Virus record (IMG/VR): IMGVR_UViG_3300028840_001389
Span: 1 to 37,801 of that record
DNA: 37,801 bases
DNA from: a virus
Direction: 5' to 3' (one strand)
Shown here: positions 4,665 through 30,732 of the stretch, piece after piece
Position numbering within the stretch: the first letter of the stretch is position 1
Layout: every line of letters begins with the position of its first letter
Program-made: the position numbers and the translations under genes
Notes under the pieces: model-generated
What the model saw: the letters and a program-made list of their open reading frames with translations, nothing else
Told to the model about the DNA's origin: nothing
The model's database searches: none

Positions 4665-5286
4665 GGCGTCTCTTCGGCGGGCCGGGATACCGAAGCTGTA
4701 TTGGGATGCCGGGCTTGAACTGCGGCGCGACGGGCATTACGAGGATCGCGGCGGGGTGTTCATCACCGGCCCGGTTGGCGTTGGAAAGACGCACCTTGCC
4801 GTAGCGATTCTGAAGGATTGGATGAAGCGAAATGTCGCCGCGAGAATCACGGGCGGGCGGTGGGATGCCGCCAAGGGCAAGAGCGTGCCGAACTATTGGA
4901 CAGACGCGCTTTTCGTGAGCGTGCCGGACTTGTTTCGGGAACTGCAAGAGTCATTCGGGCGGCGGGACGGCCCGCGCGTGCTTCCAAAATACATCAGCGT
5001 CATCGGCCTTGTGTTGGATGATATCGGGTCGGAGGCCGAGACGGACTGGCGGCGCGAGACACTTTACAACATCATCTCGCGGCGAATCAACGACTGCAAG
5101 CCGACGATTGTAACGAGCAATCTATCCTTGGCGCAGATAGACCGATGGGAACCACGAATCGCCTCGCGGCTGGCGGGGCTGAACGTGTTGGAACTGACTG
5201 GCAAGGACAGGCGGCTAATGCGGAACGCGCGGCGTGCGGCGTTGCAGAAGCAGAGGAACGAAATGCAGAAAGGAGCGGTGCGATGA
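4597..5286 (+). CDS. DnaC/IstB-like AAA+ helicase loader
   Basis: A 229-residue ATPase. Walker A is GPVGVGKT at residues 58-65, Walker B is LVLDDIG at 138-144, the sensor I-like TSN is at about 173-175, and an arginine-finger-type RIASRL follows near 187-192. This is the DnaC/IstB architecture of about the usual length. Such proteins load the replicative helicase at the origin, using single-stranded DNA as guide. There is no linked transposase, so the replication role is preferred over an IstB transposition helper. It overlaps the putative initiator upstream by 68 bp and is ATGA-coupled to the DUF5131 gene. No replicative helicase or polymerase is seen in the window, so the host's may be used. 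Confidence 0.85.
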   Translation: MSIAGLGQTPASLTASERRSRYEASLRRAGIPKLYWDAGLELRRDGHYEDRGGVFITGPVGVGKTHLAVAILKDWMKRNVAARITGGRWDAAKGKSVPNYWTDALFVSVPDLFRELQESFGRRDGPRVLPKYISVIGLVLDDIGSEAETDWRRETLYNIISRRINDCKPTIVTSNLSLAQIDRWEPRIASRLAGLNVLELTGKDRRLMRNARRAALQKQRNEMQKGAVR

Positions 5287-6203
5287 GCGCGGGATTTGAC
5301 TACGGCGACGAGAACTGGACGGTCATAACCGGGTGTACGCACTCCGGGAGTCCCGGTTGCGACAACTGCTACGCGAAGGCGGAACACGACCGGCGGCACA
5401 AGGCGTATCTCGCGGGCAAGAAGATGCCGCGTCAGTACGCGCACCCGTTCAGCAAGATTCAGTTCCACGAGGACCGGCTTGATTGGCCGCTGCACTGGCT
5501 GAAGCCGCGCCGTGTTCTGGTCTGCTTTACGGGCGACTGGATGCACCCGGACGTAAGTACTGGCCGCGCACGGGAAATCCTACACGCGATGGGGAAGGCA
5601 AGTAGGCACACCTTTTTCACGCTGACGAAGCGTCCGCAACGCCTAGCTGAAAAGTTCGGAAGGGGGTCGGGCTGCGGCATCTTGGAAACGGATTATCCGA
5701 ACGTCATCAACGGCGTGACGGTCTGCAATCAAGCCGAGGCCGACGCGAAGATACCCGAACTGCTCAAGGTTCCGGGACGGCGTTGGATAAGCCTTGAGCC
5801 GATGCTTGGGCCGGTGGATTTGTGTAACGCGGATGGCAACGACAGCTTGTCCGCACGAACGGACGAGTTCTGGAATGGCGTGGATGCGTTGCGTCCACAA
5901 ACACTTGATTGGGTCGCCATCGGCTGTGAGTCAGGCCCGAAGCGCCGCCCGTGCCGGTTGGAATGGATTCTCGATGTGGTGCAGCAATGCAAGGCTGCGC
6001 GGCTGCCGTGCTACGTCAAGCAGGTGCCGGTGCCGAAAACAAAACTGTTTTTCGCCAGAGACGACACTTACTTTGAAGAAGATAAGCCTTGGCCAATTTC
6101 TCCCGCCGTATGGGATTATCTGTGCCAACAAGACGGCTGGCGCGTGTCGCATGATGTATCCGAGTGGCCTGAACCGCTGCGAGTGAGGGAGATGCCCGAG
6201 TGA
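5283..6203 (+). CDS. DUF5131 / phage Gp37-Gp68 family protein
   Basis: A 306-residue protein starting at the ATG that overlaps the loader stop (ATGA); the frame is open upstream but inside the loader gene. The N-terminus reads NWTVITGCTHSGSPGCDNCYA, split here as a W-x-V-I-T-G-C segment and PGCDNCYA, the hallmark of the Gp37/Gp68 family. Its Cys cluster is related to, but not identical with, radical SAM enzymes. Other family landmarks are CFTGDWMHPDV, HTFFTLTKRPQRL, ISLEPMLGPVDL and VAIGCESGP. These genes are common in phages and mobile elements; the biochemical function is unsettled. It is GTGA-coupled to the DUF1064 gene downstream. Confidence 0.85.
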   Translation: MSAGFDYGDENWTVITGCTHSGSPGCDNCYAKAEHDRRHKAYLAGKKMPRQYAHPFSKIQFHEDRLDWPLHWLKPRRVLVCFTGDWMHPDVSTGRAREILHAMGKASRHTFFTLTKRPQRLAEKFGRGSGCGILETDYPNVINGVTVCNQAEADAKIPELLKVPGRRWISLEPMLGPVDLCNADGNDSLSARTDEFWNGVDALRPQTLDWVAIGCESGPKRRPCRLEWILDVVQQCKAARLPCYVKQVPVPKTKLFFARDDTYFEEDKPWPISPAVWDYLCQQDGWRVSHDVSEWPEPLRVREMPE

Positions 6204-20281: not shown

Positions 20282-21547
20282 ATGAAGGGCGTGTTGGTAG
20301 TGCCGAACGTAACGATGCACGGTTGGAACTGCTACGCGCGGGAGGGAAGAAGGCACAACTCCCTCCCGCACGGGCTTCTATCCGTGGCGACCGAAGCGAA
20401 CCGCAACGGGCACCACGTTACCATCGTGGACTTGCGGCGGCATAAGTGTATTGAAGACGCGGTGAACGACACGCTGTTGCGCGACCCGGAATTCGTCGGC
20501 GTCGGCGCGATGACCGTGGACTTCCCCGTCGCGTGCGACTATCTGAAGCGGCTGAAAGAGAAGGCGCGGCATGTGACGACCGTGATGGGCGGCGTGCATG
20601 TCAGCATCAAGCCGGAAGACGCGGAGAAGAAGGCGCAGATTGACTACATCCTGACAGGCGAAGGGGAGTGGACGCTGTGCGACATGCTCAGGGACTATTT
20701 TGTCGGGTACGAGCGCGTGGTGGCCGGGGAACCGCCCGACCTCGACGCGCTTCTTCCCATAGACCGGGAACTCATAGACTATCGCGGCGGGGAACTCTAC
20801 CACGGCGGGCAATGGCACAGCGCCTATCCGTTCGTGACCGTCATGGTCGGGCGCGGGTGCCCGCACAAATGCGCGTTCTGCTATCCCGTGAGCGACACGG
20901 TGTTCGGGCCGAAAGTGCGGATACGCAGCGTCGCGCATGTGATGATGGAACTCAAGCACCTGACGCGACAGTACCACCCCGCCTACATCGAGTTCATAGA
21001 CGACCTGTTCACGCTCAGGCGGAAATGGGTCGAGGAATTCATACGCGAGTATCCGAAGGTGTGCGGCGGTATCCCGTTCAACGTCGCGTGTCGCGCCGAC
21101 ATCATCGTGAAGCGGCCCGCCATGTTCGAGGCATTGCGCGGTATCGGCCTCGACACGGTGAACGTCGGGCTGGAAAGCGGGTGCCAGCGGCACTTGGACT
21201 ACTTGGAGAAGGGCACGACCGTCGAGCAGAACTACGAGGCGTGCCGGACGCTCAAGCGGCTGGGCTGCCGGATAGTCGGAAACATCATACACGGCATCCC
21301 CGGCGAGACGCCGAGCGAGACGATGCAGACCGTGCGGCTCGTCAAGGACTGCGACGTGGACTACTACAGCCCCGCGTTCCTGACGCCGTATCCGGGGTGC
21401 AAGCTGCATGAGACGCTGGGGAAAGACCTGGTGCCGAGCGACTACGCGCAGATGAACCGGCACGCGAAGGACGCGAAGATCGAGGGCGTGGAGTATGACG
21501 CCATTATGACCATTTTGAAGGCGGAGTTCCCGAAGGCATTCAAATGA
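20282..21547 (+). CDS. B12-binding-domain radical SAM enzyme
   Basis: A 421-residue protein with AAGGGGAG before the ATG. Residues 1-150 look like a cobalamin-binding Rossmann domain (VVPNVTMHGWNCYAREG, LLSVATEANRNGHHVTIVDL, VMGGVHVSIKPEDA, YILTGEGEW) without a clear DxHxxG histidine. Residues about 180-390 form the radical SAM barrel: RGCPHKCAFCYP (C-x3-C-x2-C), FIDDLFTLRRKWVEEF, LDTVNVGLESG and GNIIHGIPGET. Class-B type enzymes of this plan methylate or rearrange carbon centres, often in sugars or natural products. It heads a cassette with glycosyl- and methyltransferases, so glycan modification is the likely use; the real substrate is unknown. Confidence 0.88.
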   Translation: MKGVLVVPNVTMHGWNCYAREGRRHNSLPHGLLSVATEANRNGHHVTIVDLRRHKCIEDAVNDTLLRDPEFVGVGAMTVDFPVACDYLKRLKEKARHVTTVMGGVHVSIKPEDAEKKAQIDYILTGEGEWTLCDMLRDYFVGYERVVAGEPPDLDALLPIDRELIDYRGGELYHGGQWHSAYPFVTVMVGRGCPHKCAFCYPVSDTVFGPKVRIRSVAHVMMELKHLTRQYHPAYIEFIDDLFTLRRKWVEEFIREYPKVCGGIPFNVACRADIIVKRPAMFEALRGIGLDTVNVGLESGCQRHLDYLEKGTTVEQNYEACRTLKRLGCRIVGNIIHGIPGETPSETMQTVRLVKDCDVDYYSPAFLTPYPGCKLHETLGKDLVPSDYAQMNRHAKDAKIEGVEYDAIMTILKAEFPKAFK

Positions 21548-22989
21548 CCCTGGACATCATCAAGCGATTCCGCGAGTTTATGATACCGGACTTGGCGCAG
21601 AGCAAGGAGCGGCTGCCCGTTGCGGTCATCATATCGGGCCGGAACTACGGGCAATACCTGAAAGACGCCATAGAGAGCGTGCAGCGGCAGACCCCCGGCG
21701 CACGCGAGATTGTCTACATGGACAATGCCAGCGAGGACGACAGCGTGGCGGTGGCGCGTGCGTCGGGGGTGAAGGTGGCCGTGGTCGGGCCTGTGGAACG
21801 GAACATTTGCGCCCTGCGCCAGCGCGGCCTGTGCATGACGAAATCCAAGTTCATTGTGTTCATGGACGCCGACGACGTGCTGCCGAAAGGCTATCTCAAG
21901 GCGTTGCATGACCGATTCACCGAACGGCGCATCGGCCTTGTCTATCCCATGCACACGAGTTTCGGCCTGTACGAGAGTCAGGGCTGCGGCAAGAACAGGC
22001 CGAGCGTGTACCGCGAGAACTACATCGCGGGCCAGAGCATGGTGCGGCGGCGCGCGATTGAGAGTGTCGGCGGCTGGGGCAATCTGCCCGTGTTTCAGGA
22101 CTGGGAGTTGTGGCTGCGGATATTGGAACACGGGTGGTGGGCGGCGTATGCCAATATCAACTACGAGCATCGGACGCACGCGGGGAGCCTGACGGCGAGT
22201 TTCCAGAACCGGATGCCGTGGTATCAGGAAGTGCTGCGGCGTAGACCGATCACCGTGTTCACCCCGTTCGGGCCGGGCAGGCCGATTACCGGGCGGCGGT
22301 TCTTCGACATGCTGGAGAACCTTGGACTGGACTGGGACAGGACGACCCTGTTCTTCTACGACAACACGAACGACGCTGAACGCGGAAAGATGCTGCGGGA
22401 GTATCTTGCGAACTGCAAGGCGCGGAACACGATTTACCAGAAAGACGACACGCGGGTCTCGTACACGAACCTGCACAACAGGTGCATGGTCATGCCGGAG
22501 CGCATGGCCGAGATGTGGTCGCGAGCGACGCCGCATTTTTCGACGCCGTTCATCCTGAGCATCGAGGACGACAACGAGCCGTATGAGCCGAACGCGGCGC
22601 GGCGGCTGTTCGAGGGCATGGCTCCGAACGTGGACGCCGTGACGGGCGTGTACTACTCGCGGCCTATCGTGGACAACAATCGGCTTCTGGCGATGGAATG
22701 GCAGCATCGGAAAGACGGGTCGGTCGGATTGAAGCCGATAGAGCGATTCCCCGGCGACCTGCCGCGCCCGCCGAGCGACGGATGCACCCCGATAGGCGCG
22801 TCAGGCGTCGGGTTTGTGCTGATACGCAAGGAAGTGTTGCAGAACTTCAAGTACCCCGTTGGCGAGATCGGGAACTGGCTTGGACAGGACTTCGGGCTGT
22901 GGCGACACGTTCGGGACAGAGGCAACCGCCTCATGGCACACTGGGGCGTCAGAACGAAGCATTACTACAACGCAGAGGGATATGTGTGA
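21544..22989 (+). CDS. Two-domain GT2-type glycosyltransferase
   Basis: A 481-residue protein, ATGA-coupled to the gene upstream. Domain 1 (about 25-230) is a GT-A glycosyltransferase: VAVIISGRNYGQYLKDAIES, EIVYMDNASEDDS, metal site FMDADDVLP and a FQDWELWLRIL acceptor-side motif. Domain 2 (about 235-480) is a second GT-A-like fold: ILSIEDDNEPYEP as its metal site, VTGVYYSRP, GVGFVLIRKEVLQNF and GQDFGLWRHVRDRG. Each domain could add one sugar in sequence. No membrane segment is seen, so soluble acceptors such as virion proteins are plausible. Confidence 0.85.
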   Translation: MTLDIIKRFREFMIPDLAQSKERLPVAVIISGRNYGQYLKDAIESVQRQTPGAREIVYMDNASEDDSVAVARASGVKVAVVGPVERNICALRQRGLCMTKSKFIVFMDADDVLPKGYLKALHDRFTERRIGLVYPMHTSFGLYESQGCGKNRPSVYRENYIAGQSMVRRRAIESVGGWGNLPVFQDWELWLRILEHGWWAAYANINYEHRTHAGSLTASFQNRMPWYQEVLRRRPITVFTPFGPGRPITGRRFFDMLENLGLDWDRTTLFFYDNTNDAERGKMLREYLANCKARNTIYQKDDTRVSYTNLHNRCMVMPERMAEMWSRATPHFSTPFILSIEDDNEPYEPNAARRLFEGMAPNVDAVTGVYYSRPIVDNNRLLAMEWQHRKDGSVGLKPIERFPGDLPRPPSDGCTPIGASGVGFVLIRKEVLQNFKYPVGEIGNWLGQDFGLWRHVRDRGNRLMAHWGVRTKHYYNAEGYV

Positions 22990-23561
22990 TGCACTGGTAC
23001 GAGCGATTCAAGCGCACTGAGGGGTTGATGACGCCCGCCGACGGCGCGCTGCTTTACGCGCTGGCGACGAGCGCGGTGCTTGACACGGGCTGCAAGCATG
23101 TCGTGGAACTCGGCGTCTATCGCGGGCGCAGCGCGTGCGCGTTGGGCGCGGCGTGCCGGGACACGGGCGCGACGCTCTTTGGCTATGACATCTGGGGCAC
23201 AGTGCCGAGTACACAAAAGAGCGGCAGCGAGGAGATGGCGACGAAGGCATTGGCTCTGGCTGACCTGACCGACTGTGTGCGAATCCTGACGGGCGACAGC
23301 GCGGACGCGGGCAGGTCATGGGCTTACGGGCGCGTGGCGATGGTGTTCATAGACGCCTCACATACTTACGAAGCGGCGTCGGCTGACATTGTGGCGTGGT
23401 CGAAGCATATCCCACCGGGCGGGATACTCGCGCTCCATGACGTGAACTGCCCGGCGGTACAGAAGGCCATTGACGACAACGTGCCGAAGTCGGAGTTCCG
23501 GCACATTGGGTCAATCGGCGTCGTCGGCGCGTATCGAAGACCGATGGAGGGGGAAAAATGA
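22989..23561 (+). CDS. SAM-dependent methyltransferase (Methyltransf_24-like)
   Basis: A 190-residue class I methyltransferase joined to the glycosyltransferase by TGATG. Motif I is VVELGVYRGRSACALG (residues about 38-53), then GYDIWG, an acidic VFIDASHTYEAASADI and GGILALHDV. This matches the Methyltransf_24 group often found beside sugar-modifying enzymes, where it O-methylates sugars. In this cassette it probably methylates the added glycan; this is inference from neighbours. It is ATGA-coupled to the next methyltransferase. Confidence 0.85.
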   Translation: MHWYERFKRTEGLMTPADGALLYALATSAVLDTGCKHVVELGVYRGRSACALGAACRDTGATLFGYDIWGTVPSTQKSGSEEMATKALALADLTDCVRILTGDSADAGRSWAYGRVAMVFIDASHTYEAASADIVAWSKHIPPGGILALHDVNCPAVQKAIDDNVPKSEFRHIGSIGVVGAYRRPMEGEK

Positions 23562-24265
23562 CCGTCGGCACGAAGACCTATCCATTCCCTGACGACTTCG
23601 CGGCTGCGATGGCATTGCCCGCATATGAGTTCAAGAGCCTGTTCGGGCGGCAGGTGGTGAAGGGCTGGGACGACTTGCGGCAGATCGAGGCGTTTCTGCG
23701 CACAGTCAGGCCGACGTACATTCTGGAACTCGGCTGCGGGGACGGCGTGCAGGCGGTGTACTTGGCAATGTATGCGCAACTCAATCGCGTGCCCGTGAAG
23801 CGGGCGCGTTACTGTTCGCCGCCGAGTTGCCAGCCGGTCGTGTTCGCCTGCGACGCGGGCAATGTTGGTCATGACATTCGGAAAGCCTTGCCATTGTGGG
23901 GCGATGCGTATGGCGGGATAGACGTTTACGACGGCGACCGGCGGCGGTGGGTAGTCAGTCAGATACCGCGTGCCGCCGACCCGGACGGATGCGGGGAGCG
24001 CGTCATGTTGTACCTTGACATCGGCCCGCCGGACTTGGAGACGTTTGCGCCCGACGTGCCGGTGGGCGGCTACGTCATCGTACATGACTGGAAGCACAAG
24101 GGCTATCAGGAGTCGGCGGACAGGTTGGTGAACAGCGGGGTATTGGCATACTTCGAGCGGGATGTTTGGGAGAGAACGGGGGCGCATATGGGGTTCATCA
24201 GGACAGATGGCGCGCAAGGTGCTGACGGGGCTGACGGTCGTAGCGACGATAGTTGCGAGTCATAA
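23558..24265 (+). CDS. CmcI-like methyltransferase / cephalosporin hydroxylase family
   Basis: A 235-residue protein. It shows ILELGCGDGVQAVYLAMYAQ (motif I), VVFACDAGNVGHDIR, VMLYLDIGPPDLETFAPDV and GGYVIVHDWKHKGYQESADR, the order seen in CmcI/rhamnosyl O-methyltransferase enzymes, which methylate sugars or small molecules using SAM. It lies second of two adjacent methyltransferases, so two different positions may be methylated. The last 20 residues (GADGADGRSDDSC) are shared with the start of a membrane-protein frame. Confidence 0.78.
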   Translation: MTVGTKTYPFPDDFAAAMALPAYEFKSLFGRQVVKGWDDLRQIEAFLRTVRPTYILELGCGDGVQAVYLAMYAQLNRVPVKRARYCSPPSCQPVVFACDAGNVGHDIRKALPLWGDAYGGIDVYDGDRRRWVVSQIPRAADPDGCGERVMLYLDIGPPDLETFAPDVPVGGYVIVHDWKHKGYQESADRLVNSGVLAYFERDVWERTGAHMGFIRTDGAQGADGADGRSDDSCES

Positions 24266-24416
24266 CTACACCGCGTTTCGGTTGACGGGCAATCTGGCTT
24301 TGGGGCTTTTCGCGGGCATTGCCACGGCGGCAGCGATTCTTTGCGCGGTTACCGTGGTACACGACATGGGGAGAAATGAATCCAATCAGCGGAAGCAAGC
24401 TGCACTTCCATCCTGA
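24207..24416 (+). CDS. Small membrane protein
   Basis: A 69-residue frame overlapping the CmcI-like gene by 59 bp and the next gene by 41 bp. Residues 5-15 (VLTGLTVVATI) and 29-50 (NLALGLFAGIATAAAILCAV) are hydrophobic and could give one or two membrane helices; the tail is charged. It has no good ribosome site. It may anchor the modification enzymes at the membrane, act as a holin-like protein, or be a chance frame. Confidence 0.4.
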   Translation: MARKVLTGLTVVATIVASHNYTAFRLTGNLALGLFAGIATAAAILCAVTVVHDMGRNESNQRKQAALPS

Positions 24417-25398
24417 CAGGGTGGCGGAATGGAAGCGGGCGGGCGACGGTACGCCGATCACGATGGAACTGGACATGACGAACCGCTGCACGGACAACTG
24501 CCCGTGTTGCGCGGGCGGGCGGTACAAGTCCACCGCGTCGCTCGAAACGGACGCGGCGCGGCGCGTGATAGACGAGGCAGTGGAACTGGGGGTGAGGGGG
24601 TTGATATTCACGGGCGGCGGGGAGCCGCTATGCCACACGTCCGCGCCCGCGACGATGCGGTACGCCGTGGACGCGGGGTTGGGTGTCGGCCTGATTACGA
24701 ACGGGGTGCTGCTGAACCCGGAACTATACGGCGACCTGTTCCGGGCGACGTGGATACGGGTATCGCTCGACGCCGCGACGGCGGGGTTGTATGCCAAGAC
24801 ACACGGGACGAAGAACTTTGAGCGGGTGATAACGAACATCCGGGTCTTGGCCGAGGCGAAGCGCGAGCGCGGCGCGGAAACGACTATCGGCGTCGGCTTC
24901 CTTGTCGGCGCGCACACGATAAACGAGATGGAGAAATGCGCGTCGCTCTGCGCCATGCTCGGCGTGGACTATCTGCAATTCAGGCCGTTCCACGAGACGC
25001 TCGACAAGCCAAAGCTGCTGCCCGCGATTGAGTCGGCGTATTGCCGGTCGTTGGGGTACACGCGCAAGGACTACGCCGTGGTGTGGAGCGAGAACAAGTT
25101 CCGCAACATGGGGAACACGGGTCGGCCCTACGGCAAGTGCTACGGGCAGGCGTTCGCCACGGTCGTCGGCGCGGACGGTACGGTATGGCTCTGCTGCCAC
25201 ATGCGGGGCAAGGAGAAGTACGCGCTCGGCAACATCCACGAGAACTCGCTTGAGAACATCTGGTACGGCGACCGTCGGCGGGACGTGATTGACAGCATAG
25301 ACTTCCGCGATTGTGTGCCGCTGTGCCGGTGCGACCCGTTCAACCGTATCCTGTGGAACATGAAGCACAACCCGCCGCCGCATGTCGAATTTCTCTAG
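24376..25398 (+). CDS. Radical SAM/SPASM-type enzyme
   Basis: A 340-residue protein. The radical SAM cluster motif is RCTDNCPCC (C-x3-C-x2-C, residues about 37-44), followed by IFTGGGEPLCH (GGE motif), LITNGVLL and WIRVSLDAATAGLYAKTHG. The C-terminal part has Cys in CYGQAF, WLCCHMRG, and DCVPLCRCDPFN with LGNIHENSLENIWYG, as in SPASM domains that bind an extra Fe-S cluster. SPASM enzymes usually modify peptides or sugars. ATG at 24376 follows GGGGAGAA. Substrate unknown; a virion peptide or glycan is possible given its neighbours. Confidence 0.88.
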   Translation: MNPISGSKLHFHPDRVAEWKRAGDGTPITMELDMTNRCTDNCPCCAGGRYKSTASLETDAARRVIDEAVELGVRGLIFTGGGEPLCHTSAPATMRYAVDAGLGVGLITNGVLLNPELYGDLFRATWIRVSLDAATAGLYAKTHGTKNFERVITNIRVLAEAKRERGAETTIGVGFLVGAHTINEMEKCASLCAMLGVDYLQFRPFHETLDKPKLLPAIESAYCRSLGYTRKDYAVVWSENKFRNMGNTGRPYGKCYGQAFATVVGADGTVWLCCHMRGKEKYALGNIHENSLENIWYGDRRRDVIDSIDFRDCVPLCRCDPFNRILWNMKHNPPPHVEFL

Positions 25399-26064: not shown

Positions 26065-26258
26065 TGACAACTGATTTGACCTATACGGCGCGCGCCGGGA
26101 CGGAGTTGGACTTCGAGATCGTGGACGATGACGCCGCGACGGTATCCGGCGTGACCGACTATGACGACGCGACCATGACGAAGCGGAAATACGACGAGCC
26201 GGGCACGACGTGGACGGCGCGAAGCGACCCCGACACGACATGGACGGAGACGGGATAG
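26064..26258 (+). CDS. Small virion-associated protein
   Basis: A 64-residue, Thr/Asp-rich protein. It starts at the ATG overlapping the adaptor stop (TGATG). LTYTARAGTELDFEIVDDDA is strand-like and the rest (GTTWTARSDPDTTWTETG) is polar. Small proteins like this accompany phage fibre genes. The stop overlaps the next GTG start by one base. Confidence 0.45.
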   Translation: MTTDLTYTARAGTELDFEIVDDDAATVSGVTDYDDATMTKRKYDEPGTTWTARSDPDTTWTETG

Positions 26259-26821
26259 TGGCGAACTATTACGACACGCTGTACGCGCTTGCCGCCGCCG
26301 CACGCCTGACGACGAGCAGCCTGAACACGACGCACGAGCACATAGACACGCGGCTTGACGCGCTGGAACAGCACGTCGAGGACACCGACAACCCGCACGA
26401 CGTAGACAATGACGACGTGGGGAGTTCCGCGTCAACCCACACCCATACCGTTTACGAAAGCGCGGCATGGACGCTCGGCACCGTTACGGCCCGCACCCTG
26501 CAATACTGGCCGCTGGTGTACCCGGCGGCAACGATTGACCGGATACATGCGACCGTGGCGACGGCCTCGACCAGCGGCGCGATCACCATAGACGTGCAGA
26601 AATCGGGCGATAACGGGACGACGTGGGCGACCGTGTTCAGCACGAAGTTGACCATAGACGCGACCGAGCGCAGCAGCGTGAGTGCGGCGACACCGGCAGT
26701 GCTGGGCACCACCGCGTTGAGCGCGAACGACCTCTTGAAGTGCGTGGTAGATGACGCGGGCACCGGGGCGGAAGAGTTGACCGTAGTGGCAGTCCTCAAG
26801 CGAACGGTGAGCCAAGACTAA
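26258..26821 (+). CDS. Fibre- or spike-type virion protein
   Basis: A 187-residue protein. The GTG at 26258 is preferred over upstream in-frame ATGs (26210, 26240), as it overlaps the previous stop and lies after GGAGACGGG. An N-terminal helix (ALAAAARLTTSSLNTTHEHI) leads to HVEDTDNPHDVDNDDVGSS, a motif common in tail fibre collars. The rest is beta-rich (AITIDVQKSGDNGTTWATVF and ELTVVAVLKRTV). It likely forms a short fibre or its base. TAATG-coupled to the poly-Thr gene. Confidence 0.6.
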   Translation: MANYYDTLYALAAAARLTTSSLNTTHEHIDTRLDALEQHVEDTDNPHDVDNDDVGSSASTHTHTVYESAAWTLGTVTARTLQYWPLVYPAATIDRIHATVATASTSGAITIDVQKSGDNGTTWATVFSTKLTIDATERSSVSAATPAVLGTTALSANDLLKCVVDDAGTGAEELTVVAVLKRTVSQD

Positions 26822-27504
26822 TGTTCCCCTGCCTCAAGACGGCAACGACCACAACCACGACCACTACCACGACGACTACAACCACCACGACGACGACGAC
26901 TACAACCACCACGACAACCACTACCACAACGACGACTACCACCACGACCACTACGACAACGACAACGACTACCACGACCACGACAACCACAACGACTACG
27001 ACGACCACAACAACTACGACGACCACTACGACGACAACGACCACAACTACGACTACTACCACAACGACGACAACGACCACGCCAGCGCCGGGCACATGCC
27101 CGACCGACAATTGCACCGGATGCGAATCCACCTACTACTTAGACGTGAGCGATCAGGGCGCGTGTGGCGTCGGGCCGTTCGGTGCCGGGTCCATTATGAC
27201 GCTGACGCAGTACACGGGCGGTTTCCCGCCGGGGCCGAAGTGCGAGTGGACGGGGTCAACCGTGGCAAGCGGCGACTATCGCGCGGGACTGACGGACCGC
27301 CTGAAATGCGCGGACGGCTATTGGGTGATTCCGCTCTACTTCTACACGAACGGCGGGCCGGACCCGCACGGTCAGGCCGACTACAAACGCACGCCTACGG
27401 GCGACGGCGATTGTCCGGACGGCCTCTACACGAAATTCGACAGCGCGTGTCTGGGCGGCGGCGGTAGTGAAACGTTTCCCGCAACACAGACGGTTTATTC
27501 ATAA
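26821..27504 (+). CDS. Virion-type protein with 79 consecutive threonines and Cys-rich C-domain
   Basis: A 227-residue protein: MFPCLKTA, then exactly 79 Thr (codons at 26845-27081), then PAPG and a 135-residue domain. All four Thr codons are used in irregular order (ACG 30, ACC 21, ACA 15, ACT 13), so the run is kept at protein level and is not a simple DNA repeat. The C-domain has about eight Cys (CPTDNCTGC, ACGVG, PKCEW, LKCADG, DCPDG, SACLGG) with aromatic strands, likely disulfide-bonded or metal-stabilised. It looks like a mucin-like stalk with a head. TAATG coupling to the fibre gene upstream makes it a probable virion fibre. Dense O-glycosylation by nearby glycosyltransferases is the leading hypothesis. 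Confidence 0.85.
   Translation: MFPCLKTATTTTTTTTTTTTTTTTTTTTTTTTTTTTTTTTTTTTTTTTTTTTTTTTTTTTTTTTTTTTTTTTTTTTTTTTTTTTTTTPAPGTCPTDNCTGCESTYYLDVSDQGACGVGPFGAGSIMTLTQYTGGFPPGPKCEWTGSTVASGDYRAGLTDRLKCADGYWVIPLYFYTNGGPDPHGQADYKRTPTGDGDCPDGLYTKFDSACLGGGGSETFPATQTVYS
26845..27081 (+). repeat. Poly-threonine codon tract (79 ACN codons)
   Basis: Every codon in this 237-base tract is ACN. The four codons are mixed with no fixed repeat unit. The opposite strand therefore reads as poly-Val, which is a shadow. Mixed codons would reduce slippage while keeping the protein sequence. Confidence 0.98.
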
Positions 27505-27514
27505 AGGGTGAGAC

Positions 27515-27928
27515 ATGGGACTGACACCGTTGGGCTGGGGACGACACCGGCGTTGTGAAGCGTGCTTCGAGTGCGTAGCTAGGCCGGGATACAAAGACAA
27601 GTGGCCACACTGCGAGGCGAACGGAAAAGCGTTTCGCGTGGCTATCGAGTACGAATTCCTGAATGGGCCAGAATCGAATTGTCCGCTTGGGAAATGGAAA
27701 GGAGTTGTCCCCGTAGACGTTCCGGCCAGTGCGGAGGAACAACGCCAAGCGGCCATTGAACGGGCGGCGTCGGCGTCTGTTGAACTGCTGAAGGCGTTCA
27801 ACGGGACAATTCCCGACACACAGGACGGCATCCGCGACGAGTTGACGCGATTGGTTGGTGACGGGCACCTTACCGCCGACGTGGCGGCGAAGTGCGAGGA
27901 AATCTTCTTTGCGGGATTGGAGAAATAG
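27515..27928 (+). CDS. Cys-rich small protein
   Basis: A 137-residue protein with GGTGAG before the ATG. Its N-terminal half has five Cys (CEACFECVARPGY, PHCEANG, NCPLGKW), probably metal- or disulfide-bound; the C-terminal half is helical (AAIERAASASVELLKAF and ADVAAKCEEIFFAGL). I recall the GYKDKWPHCEANGKAF pattern from unannotated phage tail-region proteins, not a known function. It lies directly after the poly-Thr gene. Confidence 0.6.
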   Translation: MGLTPLGWGRHRRCEACFECVARPGYKDKWPHCEANGKAFRVAIEYEFLNGPESNCPLGKWKGVVPVDVPASAEEQRQAAIERAASASVELLKAFNGTIPDTQDGIRDELTRLVGDGHLTADVAAKCEEIFFAGLEK

Positions 27929-27930
27929 TC

Positions 27931-28110
27931 ATGGCCGGGGAAGGGTTGGAGCATTACCGGCGGGCGGCGGCGAAGAACAAAGCGAACAAGGGCGACTGCG
28001 CGCCCTGTCAGGAGCATCGGGAACGAATGCTCAAAGACATGGAGACGGATATTGCGCGGCGCGCTGCCGAGAAGGTGAACAGGCCCGACGTGGAGGTGTC
28101 GAGGTTGTGA
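27931..28110 (+). CDS. Small charged protein
   Basis: A 59-residue helical protein (GLEHYRRAAAKNKANKGD, then CAPCQEHRERMLKDM) with one CxxC. GGAG lies in the end of the previous gene. It starts two bases after the previous stop and its own stop overlaps a GTG (GTGA). Function unknown. Confidence 0.5.
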   Translation: MAGEGLEHYRRAAAKNKANKGDCAPCQEHRERMLKDMETDIARRAAEKVNRPDVEVSRL

Positions 28111-28309
28111 TTACCAAGAGGGTACGAGGCATCTTCGCGTAAACGGAACGTGGTGCCAGGTGGCGTGGTTTCAACTGACGAAGGCAGAACTGCTGGCGTT
28201 TGCGGAGAAGGCGAAAGAACTGCGCGATAATCAGTCCAAGACCTTCACGATCTCATGGCCATCCAAGGCGTGTCATCAGTGCGGAACGTTTGGGCGTGGC
28301 CGAAGTTGA
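28107..28309 (+). pseudogene. Frameshifted small protein related to the C-terminus of the gene at 30729
   Basis: GTG at 28107 overlaps the previous stop (GTGA) but its frame stops after 11 codons (MITKRVRGIFA). From about 28130 another frame reads HLRVNGTWCQVAWFQL, then SWPSKACHQCG, and ends at 28309. The gene at 30729 ends with YVRINGDWYQVVFLE and SWQAKACHRCG, so both share an [R-x-N-G-x-W-x-Q-V]...[S-W-x2-K-A-C-H-x-C-G] module. A one-base frameshift in about 28120-28135 would join the two parts into one protein of about 66 residues. It may be a pseudogene, a sequencing error, or a programmed shift. Confidence 0.5.
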
Positions 28310-28332
28310 CATGGGCCGAATTGTGAGATAGA

Positions 28333-28346
28333 CTCCCATTCGGGAG
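28333..28346 (+). promoter_or_regulatory. Hairpin covering the ribosome binding site of the phosphoesterase
   Basis: CTCCC (28333-28337) pairs with GGGAG (28342-28346) around ATTC. The GGGAG strand is the only good ribosome site for the ATG at 28353, six bases away. A stem here could lower or regulate translation of this gene. Confidence 0.4.
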
Positions 28347-28352
28347 ATTGAG

Positions 28353-29093
28353 ATGAAGCGACTGGCGTTAGCTATTATTTGCGCGGCTGTGCTGGCCGTC
28401 CCGATTCTATGGGCGGCGCACGGCACGACGCCATCATTCGCCGTCGTGGGCGATTTGCACTTGCCCGTGTCGGACTTCGACGAGTCGTGGGTGGACGCAA
28501 TCAACGCGACGGGCGCGGACAGGTTGTTCGTCGTGGGCGACGTGGTGCATGGGCCGCGTTGGCGTGAGGGCTGGGCGCGATTCGATACGCTTGTGTCCGG
28601 GCTGGACATGCCGGTTCATGTGGTATGCGGGAATCACGATGTTGACGAACCGGGCGCGTTGGAATTCTGGCGCGGGCGATACGGGCGCGACTACGACGTG
28701 CTGGCCGACGGTGGCACGCGATACGTTGTGCTGAATACAGAACTCGCGGGCGCGGAGCGGGCCGCGATGCTCGACTGGTTGCGGGCCGAACTAGCCGTGC
28801 CGTGCGACAGGCGATACCTGTTCACGCACAAGCCGTTGCCGGAGATTCCGGCGTCTGACCGAACGCTTCCGGGGCAACCGGACATCGAGGCGGTCGTTTC
28901 CGTAGGCGGCGTGGACATCGTATTCAGCGGGTATTGGCATTACTTCCTCACAATGGAAATGGGGCGGTATGCGCAAGCGATTACGGGTGGGGGCGGGAAT
29001 GGCCTGTTGCGCCATGACCGGCGCGAGGGCGAGAAGGTGAATCATTTTCTGGTCGTGCATCGTGGACGCATGGAGCGAGTGGCGGTCGAGTAG
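28353..29093 (+). CDS. Secreted metallophosphoesterase
   Basis: A 246-residue calcineurin-like phosphoesterase with an N-terminal signal-like segment (KRLALAIICAAVLAVPILWAA), so it may act outside the cytoplasm. Metal motifs are in order: VGDLHLP (D-x-H), VVGDVVHG (GD), CGNHDVD (GNHD), FTHKPL and FSGYWHYF. The last site is normally G-H-x-H; here the first His is Tyr, which could lower or change activity. Such enzymes cleave phosphate esters, including nucleotides or cell-wall/teichoic-type polymers. It is unusual in a phage tail region; a role in attack on surface phosphate or in processing donors is possible. Confidence 0.85.
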   Translation: MKRLALAIICAAVLAVPILWAAHGTTPSFAVVGDLHLPVSDFDESWVDAINATGADRLFVVGDVVHGPRWREGWARFDTLVSGLDMPVHVVCGNHDVDEPGALEFWRGRYGRDYDVLADGGTRYVVLNTELAGAERAAMLDWLRAELAVPCDRRYLFTHKPLPEIPASDRTLPGQPDIEAVVSVGGVDIVFSGYWHYFLTMEMGRYAQAITGGGGNGLLRHDRREGEKVNHFLVVHRGRMERVAVE

Positions 29094-29139
29094 AACGGGG
29101 CAGTTGTTGGGCACAACGCTTAGAGAACGCTTGCTGGCA

Positions 29140-30051
29140 ATGGAGCGCGTGGCTGAATCGAAGCGATGCGGCCAGTGTAAGTCCAAGATGCTCGCCAGCG
29201 ACATTTCCGTCATCATCGCGGCGTGTAACGAGCCGGACTTGCCGAATACCGTGGCGAACATCCGCGAGACGTGTCCCGGCGCGGAGATCATCGTCGTGGA
29301 CGACATGAGCGAACGGCGCGTGGACGGCGCGGCGGTCTACAACATTACACGTCAGGGCTGCGCGGGCAGCAGACACATCGGGGCATTGGCCGCACATGGA
29401 CGTGTGCTGTTTTTCACCGACGCACACATGCGGTTCAAGACGAACGACATCACGCGGATATGCGCCGTTGCCAAGCGGACACGGGGCTTCGCCTACGGCG
29501 GCTGCAATAACCATTTCGGTGCGCGGCTGGAAGTGAACGACAAGGGGCTGCTGCAAGTCTACTGGCGCGGCGCGGACAAGGGCGACGTGGCGCGAACGAC
29601 GGGCATGATGGGCGCGTGCTACGCGATACCAAAAGACGTGCTTGAACGCATGGGCGGCTGGCTGGCGCTGTCGGGCACGACGGGCCATTCCGAGTGCGCC
29701 ATGTCCATCCTCGCGGCGAAGTGCTGCGTGCCGATCACGCTGACCCGCACGGTGAACGTGACGCACGAGTTCCGCGACCCCGGCAACGCGCCGTACACGA
29801 ACACGCGAGGGCAGCAAGACCTGCAAATGGCGTCCATGTACCGGATACTCTTCGAGAATCCGGCGTATGAGATGTTCGCGGGCCACATGGCCGACGCGGG
29901 TGTGTCGCGTGCGGTACTTGACGCGGTGTCGCAATCTGCCGAACTACGGGAGTACGGCAGGCGGATACGGGAACGCTGCCTGCTGTCCGACGAAGCGTTT
30001 CTAAGATTGTGCGGGAACTGGCGGAGGGAGACAGGTGATGTTGACCGATGA
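29140..30051 (+). CDS. Glycosyltransferase with polypeptide GalNAc-transferase-like motifs
   Basis: About 303 residues; a GTG at 29062 (inside the phosphoesterase end) is an alternative start. The GT-A fold shows DISVIIAACNEPDLPNT and AEIIVVDDMSERR. The metal motif is D-A-H (FFTDAHMRF, nt 29419-29427), not the usual D-x-D, as in polypeptide GalNAc-transferases (GT27). Two further GT27-like stretches follow: GMMGACYAIPKDVLERMGGW and VTHEFRDPGNAPYT; in GT27 the His there completes the metal site. GT27 enzymes put the first sugar on Thr/Ser of proteins. The poly-Thr protein lies 1.6 kb upstream, an obvious candidate substrate. No lectin domain or membrane anchor is seen. Confidence 0.78.
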   Translation: MERVAESKRCGQCKSKMLASDISVIIAACNEPDLPNTVANIRETCPGAEIIVVDDMSERRVDGAAVYNITRQGCAGSRHIGALAAHGRVLFFTDAHMRFKTNDITRICAVAKRTRGFAYGGCNNHFGARLEVNDKGLLQVYWRGADKGDVARTTGMMGACYAIPKDVLERMGGWLALSGTTGHSECAMSILAAKCCVPITLTRTVNVTHEFRDPGNAPYTNTRGQQDLQMASMYRILFENPAYEMFAGHMADAGVSRAVLDAVSQSAELREYGRRIRERCLLSDEAFLRLCGNWRRETGDVDR

Positions 30052-30232
30052 CGAAAAGCAGTTTATGAGCGATGCGGCCATGAGGTATGTGCAGGGCCGG
30101 GCGTCCTCGTTCAACGGCCTACATTGGACGGATACCACTGCCGACTGGGCGTTTACGGTGGCGCGCCAAATGCTCCACGCGCGACGGAGAGCAATCACAA
30201 CCGAAACCAATAACAAAAAGGAGGGGAACTGA
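30038..30232 (+). CDS. Small hypothetical protein
   Basis: A 64-residue helical protein. GGAGGG at 30024-30029 fits ATG 30038 and not the GTG three bases earlier. It overlaps the glycosyltransferase end by 14 bp, and its stop region carries AAGGAGGG for the next gene. Charged, no Cys. Function unknown. Confidence 0.5.
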   Translation: MLTDDEKQFMSDAAMRYVQGRASSFNGLHWTDTTADWAFTVARQMLHARRRAITTETNNKKEGN

Positions 30233-30732
30233 TGCACAGGGAAAGCCACGACGGCATAGCGAAACTGATGGACAAGTACCTTACCGACTGGCGCGGCGAG
30301 AAGTACGCCGTTGTGGACGTGGGGTCACAGGACGTGAACGGGACGTACCGCGACCTGATGGACGACAAGTGGAGCTACATCGGCGTAGACGTGACGACTG
30401 GCAAGAACGTGGACGTGGTGATGAAGAATGACATGGAGATTCCCCTGCCCGACGTGAGCGCGGACTTGGTGCTGTGCGGACAGGTGTTGGAACACTCGCG
30501 GAATCCGTGGCGGATTGTCTGCGAGATTGGCCGGATACTGCGGTCTGGCGGGTATGCGTTTGTCGTAGCACCGAGGCGATTCCACACCCACCGCTACCCG
30601 CTGGACTGCTTTCGTATCTTGGAGGACGGGATGCGCGCCCTGCTGGAGCAGGGCGGCATGGAAGTGGTCGAGGCATACGAAGCCCCAATGCGCTGCGGCG
30701 TGGACTGCTGGGGCGTCGGGAGGAAGAAATGA
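30232..30732 (+). CDS. SAM-dependent methyltransferase (Methyltransf_11-like)
   Basis: A 166-residue class I methyltransferase. AVVDVGSQDVNGTYRDLM is motif I, IGVDVTTGKNVDVV the second strand, then LVLCGQVLEHSRNPWRIVCEI and LRSGGYAFVVAPRRFHTH. It is short and compact, like phage and cell-surface sugar methyltransferases. It sits between two glycosyltransferases, so glycan O-methylation is a reasonable inference. ATGA-coupled to the next gene. Confidence 0.82.
   Translation: MHRESHDGIAKLMDKYLTDWRGEKYAVVDVGSQDVNGTYRDLMDDKWSYIGVDVTTGKNVDVVMKNDMEIPLPDVSADLVLCGQVLEHSRNPWRIVCEIGRILRSGGYAFVVAPRRFHTHRYPLDCFRILEDGMRALLEQGGMEVVEAYEAPMRCGVDCWGVGRKK

Follow-up and report, generated by a model that had tools for sequence, protein, structure and literature searches.

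O-glycosylation of the mucin type is regarded as a trait of eukaryotes. The polypeptide N-acetylgalactosamine (GalNAc) transferases of family GT27 are defined by a D-x-H metal-binding motif instead of the D-x-D motif, and the Toxoplasma protein CST1, which combines a threonine (Thr)-rich mucin domain with a Cys-rich domain, is densely glycosylated by the GT27 enzymes GalNAc-T2 and GalNAc-T3 acting one after another (PMC11074326). Among phages, glycosyltransferases encoded by the mycobacteriophages Che8, Corndog and Myrna are described as modifying the structural proteins of these phages themselves (Freeman et al. 2023, as cited in PMC12363180 and PMC11256854). Here we analyze a locus in the virus record IMGVR_UViG_3300028840_001389, positions 1 to 37,801 (hereinafter the window, that is, the whole stretch of 37,801 nucleotides), in which a gene encoding a protein with a pure poly-Thr tract is followed by a gene for a GT27-like glycosyltransferase, and weigh the evidence that the two are an enzyme and its substrate. 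A preceding reading of the window, made from the sequence alone (the sequence-only reading), knew of no described phage system with this pairing, and in the open-access literature we found no paper that describes GT27-like enzymes together with poly-Thr proteins of phages.

A poly-threonine gene and a GT27-like glycosyltransferase

Genes for a terminase (PHROG 38, 5e-66), a portal protein and a major head protein (PHROG 9953, 4e-36) mark the window as a phage contig; a second contig of the same virus, IMGVR_UViG_3300017971_000415, is identical to the window over an overlap of 18,662 bases. The poly-Thr gene (26821..27504, plus strand) encodes a protein of 227 amino acids that consists of an N-terminus of 8 residues, a tract of 79 uninterrupted Thr codons without a single non-Thr codon (26845..27081, plus strand; hereinafter T79), which is the candidate acceptor and the proposed O-glycosylated stalk, and a C-terminal head of 140 amino acids with 8 Cys (27082..27501, plus strand). 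T79 is a long Thr/Ser-rich tract of the kind by which mucin domains are recognized, and two comparable poly-Thr carriers match the Pfam Mucin model weakly, below its cut-off. The head has no homologs in IMG/VR outside the same virus, no match in Pfam, PHROG or the named phages, and nothing below an E-value of 0.15 in the PDB.

All four ACN codons are intermixed in T79 (ACG 30, ACC 21, ACA 15, ACT 13); the third codon positions approach saturation (1.92 of 2 bits), and all 158 first and second positions read AC. Given that the third positions are close to saturation while none of the codons has mutated away from Thr, Thr itself is under selection, and the same saturation rules out a fresh or chance slippage tract without meaning. 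Compared with the rest of the window, the tract uses the Thr codons much more evenly (ACG 38% versus 59% and ACT 16% versus 5%), which may limit slippage, although other tracts vary in this respect. Identical codons are adjacent 14 times versus 21 expected (p = 0.037); considering that other tracts point both ways, we do not claim a general rule of codon scrambling against slippage.

The glycosyltransferase gene (29140..30051, plus strand; Pfam Glycos_transf_2, 5e-11) begins 1.56 to 1.64 kb past the poly-Thr gene, on the same strand. The open reading frame spans 29062-30051, with a GTG start at 29062; the ATG at 29140 is the more likely start and yields a protein of 303 amino acids that contains the motifs FFTDAHMRF, TTGMMGACYAIPKDVLERMGGW and THEFRDPGNAPY. 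Two of its elements correspond to the GT27 metal site, namely the D-x-H motif D94-A-H96 (29419..29427, plus strand) and H209-E-F-R-x5-P-Y (29764..29796, plus strand), the likely counterpart of the GalNAc-transferase H-V-F-R...P-Y motif, in which the His is the third metal ligand; in sequence alignments, H209 falls on this GALNT His. In the alignment of 24 phage enzymes (A3), the D and H of D-x-H are nearly invariant and H209 is invariant; in the alignment of 19 (A4), all three are invariant. The enzyme has no apparent membrane segment and lacks the ricin-type lectin domain of eukaryotic GalNAc-transferases, its model ending in helices without a beta-trefoil. The sequence-only reading had pointed to the 79 uninterrupted Thr codons, to a D-A-H glycosyltransferase 1.6 kb downstream and to the GT27 pattern of metal-binding His, all of which we find in place; it also identified the distal motif correctly while giving its spacing as THEFR-x6-PY rather than THEFR-x5-PY.

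Pfam Glycos_transf_2 is a broad family and includes GT27 as well. A phmmer search of the PDB with the window enzyme gave 12 matches, 11 of which are GalNAc-transferase chains (best E-value 2.4e-4), the twelfth being an Irp2 protein (2.2), with no GT2 enzyme among them. Two phage relatives match GALNT10 across the whole catalytic domain, L019 at 3.3e-20, with the best GT2 at 0.005, and L069 at 1.5e-15, with GT2 many orders weaker. The profile of the 19 phage enzymes (A4) ranks all 16 GT27 sequences first, over their full length (6.9e-39 to 2.7e-28), followed by chondroitin synthase, and plain GT2 enzymes are matched mainly in the N-terminal half. An AlphaFold model of the window enzyme, built with the alignment of 24 phage sequences, has a mean predicted local distance difference test score (pLDDT) of 87.7 and a predicted template modeling score (pTM) of 0.87. 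In a Foldseek search of the PDB with this model, the best 50 matches are all GalNAc-transferases (best E-value 5.5e-16; TM-scores of 0.58-0.70 by query length; 16-21% identity), comprising GalNAc-T1, T2, T4, T7, T10 and T12, PGANT9 and Toxoplasma GalNAc-T3. Judging from these sequence comparisons and the predicted structure, which agree with the earlier assignment to GT27 rather than GT2, the close relatives of the enzyme among solved structures are polypeptide GalNAc-transferases only. Because the lectin domain is absent, we refer to the enzyme as GT27-fold or GT27-like and not as a formal member of the family.

Recurrent association of threonine tracts and the enzyme

Single-sequence searches found no relatives outside the same virus and none in named phages; a first scan of genome contigs also found none, and tblastn against 50,697 phage records retrieved no full-length relatives of the enzymes described here. 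The bacterial genomes scanned with profile A2 yielded mostly ordinary DxD enzymes (among the GT2-like domains caught on bacterial chromosomes, 82 have DxD and 5 DxH), with no Thr tract of at least 15 residues nearby. The few D-x-H relatives in contigs of bacterial chromosomes or metagenome-assembled genomes (two in L260, Clostridium sp. OS1-26; others in L258, L259 and L261) have no adjacent Thr tract.

The association was surveyed starting from the tracts. When IMG/VR was scanned for about 30 consecutive ACN codons, 81 stretches were obtained, of which about 50 are true mixed-codon Thr tracts in open reading frames; T79 is the longest Thr tract among the results. From the 81 stretches, 50 poly-Thr records, each with a run of at least 30 Thr, were picked by mixed codons, a usable open reading frame and non-redundancy. 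The choice followed a first regional search that had already been seen and ignored its result; to keep the set at 50, a few more qualifying records were dropped, and the enzyme-positive near-duplicate L039 was left out. Profile A4 matches 25 of these records, with D-x-H in 23, compared to a single match, in which the motif was not seen, among 45 random records (23/50 versus 0/45 for the D-x-H enzyme, Fisher test 2e-8). In 50 environmental records with poly-Gly tracts, used as a second control, A4 matches 3, and about three records carry a D-x-H enzyme. Because A4 was partly trained on the poly-Thr set, the survey was repeated with Pfam PF00535, which is present in 29 of the 50 poly-Thr, 2 of the 45 random and 6 of the 50 poly-Gly records; the Fisher tests of the contrast between poly-Thr and poly-Gly give 2e-6 and 1e-6. 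The random contigs are smaller on average (1.38 Mb versus 2.56 Mb in all); among contigs of 20-110 kb, the D-x-H enzyme is found in 19 of 33 poly-Thr and 0 of 23 random records. The much lower frequency of glycosyltransferases in both the random and the poly-Gly contigs indicates a link to Thr tracts specifically, rather than to phages or low-complexity proteins in general.

The arrangement of the two genes is constrained as well. The enzyme lies less than 5 kb from the tract in 17 of the 23 records, on the same strand in all 17 and downstream in 16, often as the very next gene. The most compact pairs, in which the two genes are directly adjacent, are those of L019 (5132-7702, gap of 34 bases) and L069 (2396-5284, gap of 10 bases). 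In a Pfam scan of the neighbors, Glycos_transf_2 (PF00535) is by far the most common family downstream of the tracts (21 of 96 genes), followed by methyltransferases; upstream, it accounts for 3 of 99 genes, and there are many tail genes, including those for tape measure and baseplate hub proteins. The two genes pair, close together and in fixed order, across many otherwise unrelated phages, in keeping with the sequence-only reading, which had taken them to belong together.

The enzyme-associated carriers show no detectable sequence similarity to one another outside the tract, although Cys-rich C-terminal heads recur, and the enzymes form several lineages, with tract-associated and other enzymes interleaved in the tree: the tract label requires 5 changes, at least 3 of them forced by well-supported branches. 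The nearest relative of the window enzyme, L079 (36% identity, support 96/93), is also encoded downstream of a Thr tract, which sits in a carrier protein unrelated to that of the window. Thus, with unrelated carriers and enzymes from several lineages, the pair recurs and is not one inherited block. For a divergent second group of enzymes beside the tracts (group B, profile A5), the top match by structure is GalNAc-T2; by sequence, the group-B profile best matches, within the PDB, a beta-1,3-N-acetylglucosamine (GlcNAc) transferase (6h1j and related entries, 7e-8), named TarP in the entry titles. The pairing of tract and enzyme is general and not peculiar to the phage in the window, and its recurrence, with all else changing, is the expected trace of an enzyme-substrate pair. 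Three related contigs (L011, L048 and L004) have poly-Thr genes in common, and two conserved small genes come after them, with no glycosyltransferase detected.

Proposed function and alternatives

Considering the fold and the metal motif of the window enzyme and, above all, the co-occurrence of such enzymes with Thr tracts in many phages, we think it likely that it modifies T79, making it an O-glycosylated, mucin-like stalk on a virion protein. The relation between enzyme and substrate, with Thr as the acceptor, is inferred from the coupling of the two genes and from knowledge of the family. Under this scenario, the phage would make a mucin-like glycoprotein from the poly-Thr protein (26821-27504). 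The product of 29140-30051 would be a short, cytoplasmic, GT27-fold polypeptide glycosyltransferase that transfers a sugar from a uridine diphosphate (UDP)-sugar, most likely UDP-N-acetylhexosamine, to the Thr side chains of T79 in the cytoplasm of the infected cell, prior to assembly. GalNAc as the transferred sugar is possible, if rather doubtful. Dense O-glycosylation might then turn the tract into a stiff, extended stalk bearing the Cys-containing head on the virion; the donor sugar, the stalk function and the display of the head are guesses. The interpretation offered by the sequence-only reading is, overall, supported, with GalNAc, mucin chemistry in the strict sense and location on the virion remaining its conjectural parts.

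Several observations weigh against this interpretation. In about half of the poly-Thr contigs, a D-x-H enzyme cannot be detected, and of the 35 records in which the sequence continues for at least 4 kb downstream, 15 have the enzyme within 5 kb downstream and 20 do not; such contigs could be fragments or could rely on other enzyme families or on host enzymes. In the window itself, the two genes are about 1.6 kb apart, and the enzyme is without the lectin domain of the eukaryotic GalNAc-transferases. Many phage D-x-H enzymes have no Thr-rich neighbor, which implies that the family is able to use other acceptors. The counts obtained with profiles A4 and A5, which were partly trained on poly-Thr contigs, are inflated, whereas the Pfam counts are free of this effect. 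Altogether, about a quarter of the probability lies with the alternatives, chiefly with an enzyme that acts on a host polymer.

In this foremost alternative, which we consider unlikely, the enzyme targets a host cell-wall polymer, the O-antigen or phage DNA, and the pair merely shares a region of cargo or host-range genes after the tail genes. The D-x-H enzymes without Thr-rich neighbors fit this explanation, as does the match of the group-B profile to TarP, a wall teichoic acid enzyme, and it is well known that some phages modify polymers of the host surface with glycosyltransferases of their own. It leaves unexplained, however, the rarity of glycosyltransferases in the random and poly-Gly contigs and the tight, directional placement of the enzyme relative to the tract; moreover, the nearest folds are those of polypeptide transferases, and the window enzyme shows no sign of a membrane segment. 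Less probable still is an unmodified tract that grew through the expansion of repeats and serves as a low-complexity linker or binds a surface, the nearby enzyme being incidental. Such growth is suggested by a residual periodicity of 18-36 bp within T79, and poly-Thr tracts without a detectable enzyme do exist, but the near-saturation of synonymous codons with an unchanged amino acid implies that Thr itself is required, and the co-occurrence statistics also speak against this explanation. It is highly improbable that the enzyme is an ordinary, perhaps inactive GT2 in which D-x-D drifted to D-A-H, as its Pfam name and low identity to GalNAc-transferases might suggest, given that D-x-H and the distal His are conserved even in phage relatives that have diverged widely, and that GalNAc-transferases rank first for the full domain by both sequence profile and fold.

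Returning to glycosylation of the tract by its neighboring enzyme, a broader proposition, which we hold tentatively and regard as nearly balanced between true and false, is that self-encoded mucin-type O-glycosylation is widespread among tailed phages of uncultured bacteria. It would include pure Thr stalks on diverse virion proteins, a lectin-free initiating enzyme of the GT27 fold and, in some phages, extending enzymes and GT29-like capping enzymes, would take place in the cytoplasm and would perhaps share ancestry with the eukaryotic enzymes. If this is true, a phage version made up of two genes, with a repetitive acceptor, would offer a minimal, lectin-free GT27-like enzyme together with a defined substrate, so that the start and spread of dense O-glycosylation would become testable with a defined pair, and cytoplasmic synthesis of mucins in E. 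coli would become conceivable as a tool. It would also hint at the way in which these phages come by stiff, protease-resistant or receptor-presenting surfaces and raise the question of viral or bacterial relatives at the root of GT27 and GT29.

Genomic surroundings and comparison with known systems

The gene upstream of the poly-Thr gene (26210..26821, plus strand) encodes a probable tail or fiber protein, with weak PHROG matches to a tail protein (E-value 0.0013) and to a PHROG of unknown function (2.5e-6). Its stop codon and the ATG of the poly-Thr gene overlap by one base, at 26821 (...TAATG). Of the coupling to a fiber-type gene noted in the earlier reading, the coupling holds, and the fiber-type assignment is weakly supported by the tail match. 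Between the poly-Thr gene and the enzyme are encoded a small protein without a significant family match (27515..27928, plus strand) and a calcineurin-like phosphoesterase with a hydrophobic N-terminus (28353..29093, plus strand; PF00149, 2.8e-12). Shortly 3' of the enzyme is a class I methyltransferase (30232..30732, plus strand; PF08241, 1.6e-10) that could modify a sugar or glycan; methyltransferases recur 3' of the poly-Thr genes in other phages, and several tract operons hold a second GT2 gene that is related between phages. We would guess that the methyltransferase and further glycosyltransferases decorate, extend or cap the glycan.

GT29 is a family known for capping glycans, and sialyltransferase-like genes of this family are present in two poly-Thr operons (L041, 147-710, minus strand, 2e-18; L063, 7340-7897, plus strand, 5e-13); tblastn gave one weak match, in the 484-kb uncultured phage record LR756508.1. 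In L014, the gene after the D-x-H enzyme (5099-6019, plus strand) weakly matches the alpha-2,8-polysialyltransferase family (8e-4). A second cluster of unusual enzymes lies within the structural module of the window (20282-25398) and consists of a B12-binding radical S-adenosylmethionine (SAM) protein (20282), a GT2 protein that has an additional region at its C-terminus (21544), two methyltransferases (22698 and 23558) and a SPASM radical SAM protein (24319). Near the left end (139-276), there is a tandem repeat with a 33-bp unit in 4.2 copies.

Compared with known systems, the window enzyme shares with GT27 (GALNT1, 2, 4, 10 and 12, Drosophila PGANT9 and Toxoplasma GalNAc-T3) the GT-A fold, the D-x-H motif and, within H-x-F-R-x(n)-P-Y, the distal His; a Thr-rich acceptor candidate is encoded nearby. 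Unlike these enzymes, it is about 300 amino acids long and phage-encoded and lacks a lectin domain and any apparent secretory or membrane anchor; its identity to them is 16-21%. TarP, which acts on teichoic acid, also has the GT-A fold, but the fold search with group B prefers GalNAc-transferases. As in the mycobacteriophages, the glycosyltransferase (29140-30051) is encoded on a phage contig; the acceptors named in the cited accounts of those phages are capsid and tail tube proteins and not a poly-Thr tract. CST1, finally, is a studied parallel in that it joins a Thr-rich domain to a Cys-rich one; it is made in the eukaryotic secretory pathway and consists of repeat units that include other residues, whereas T79 contains nothing but Thr and its modification would take place in the cytoplasm of the bacterium.

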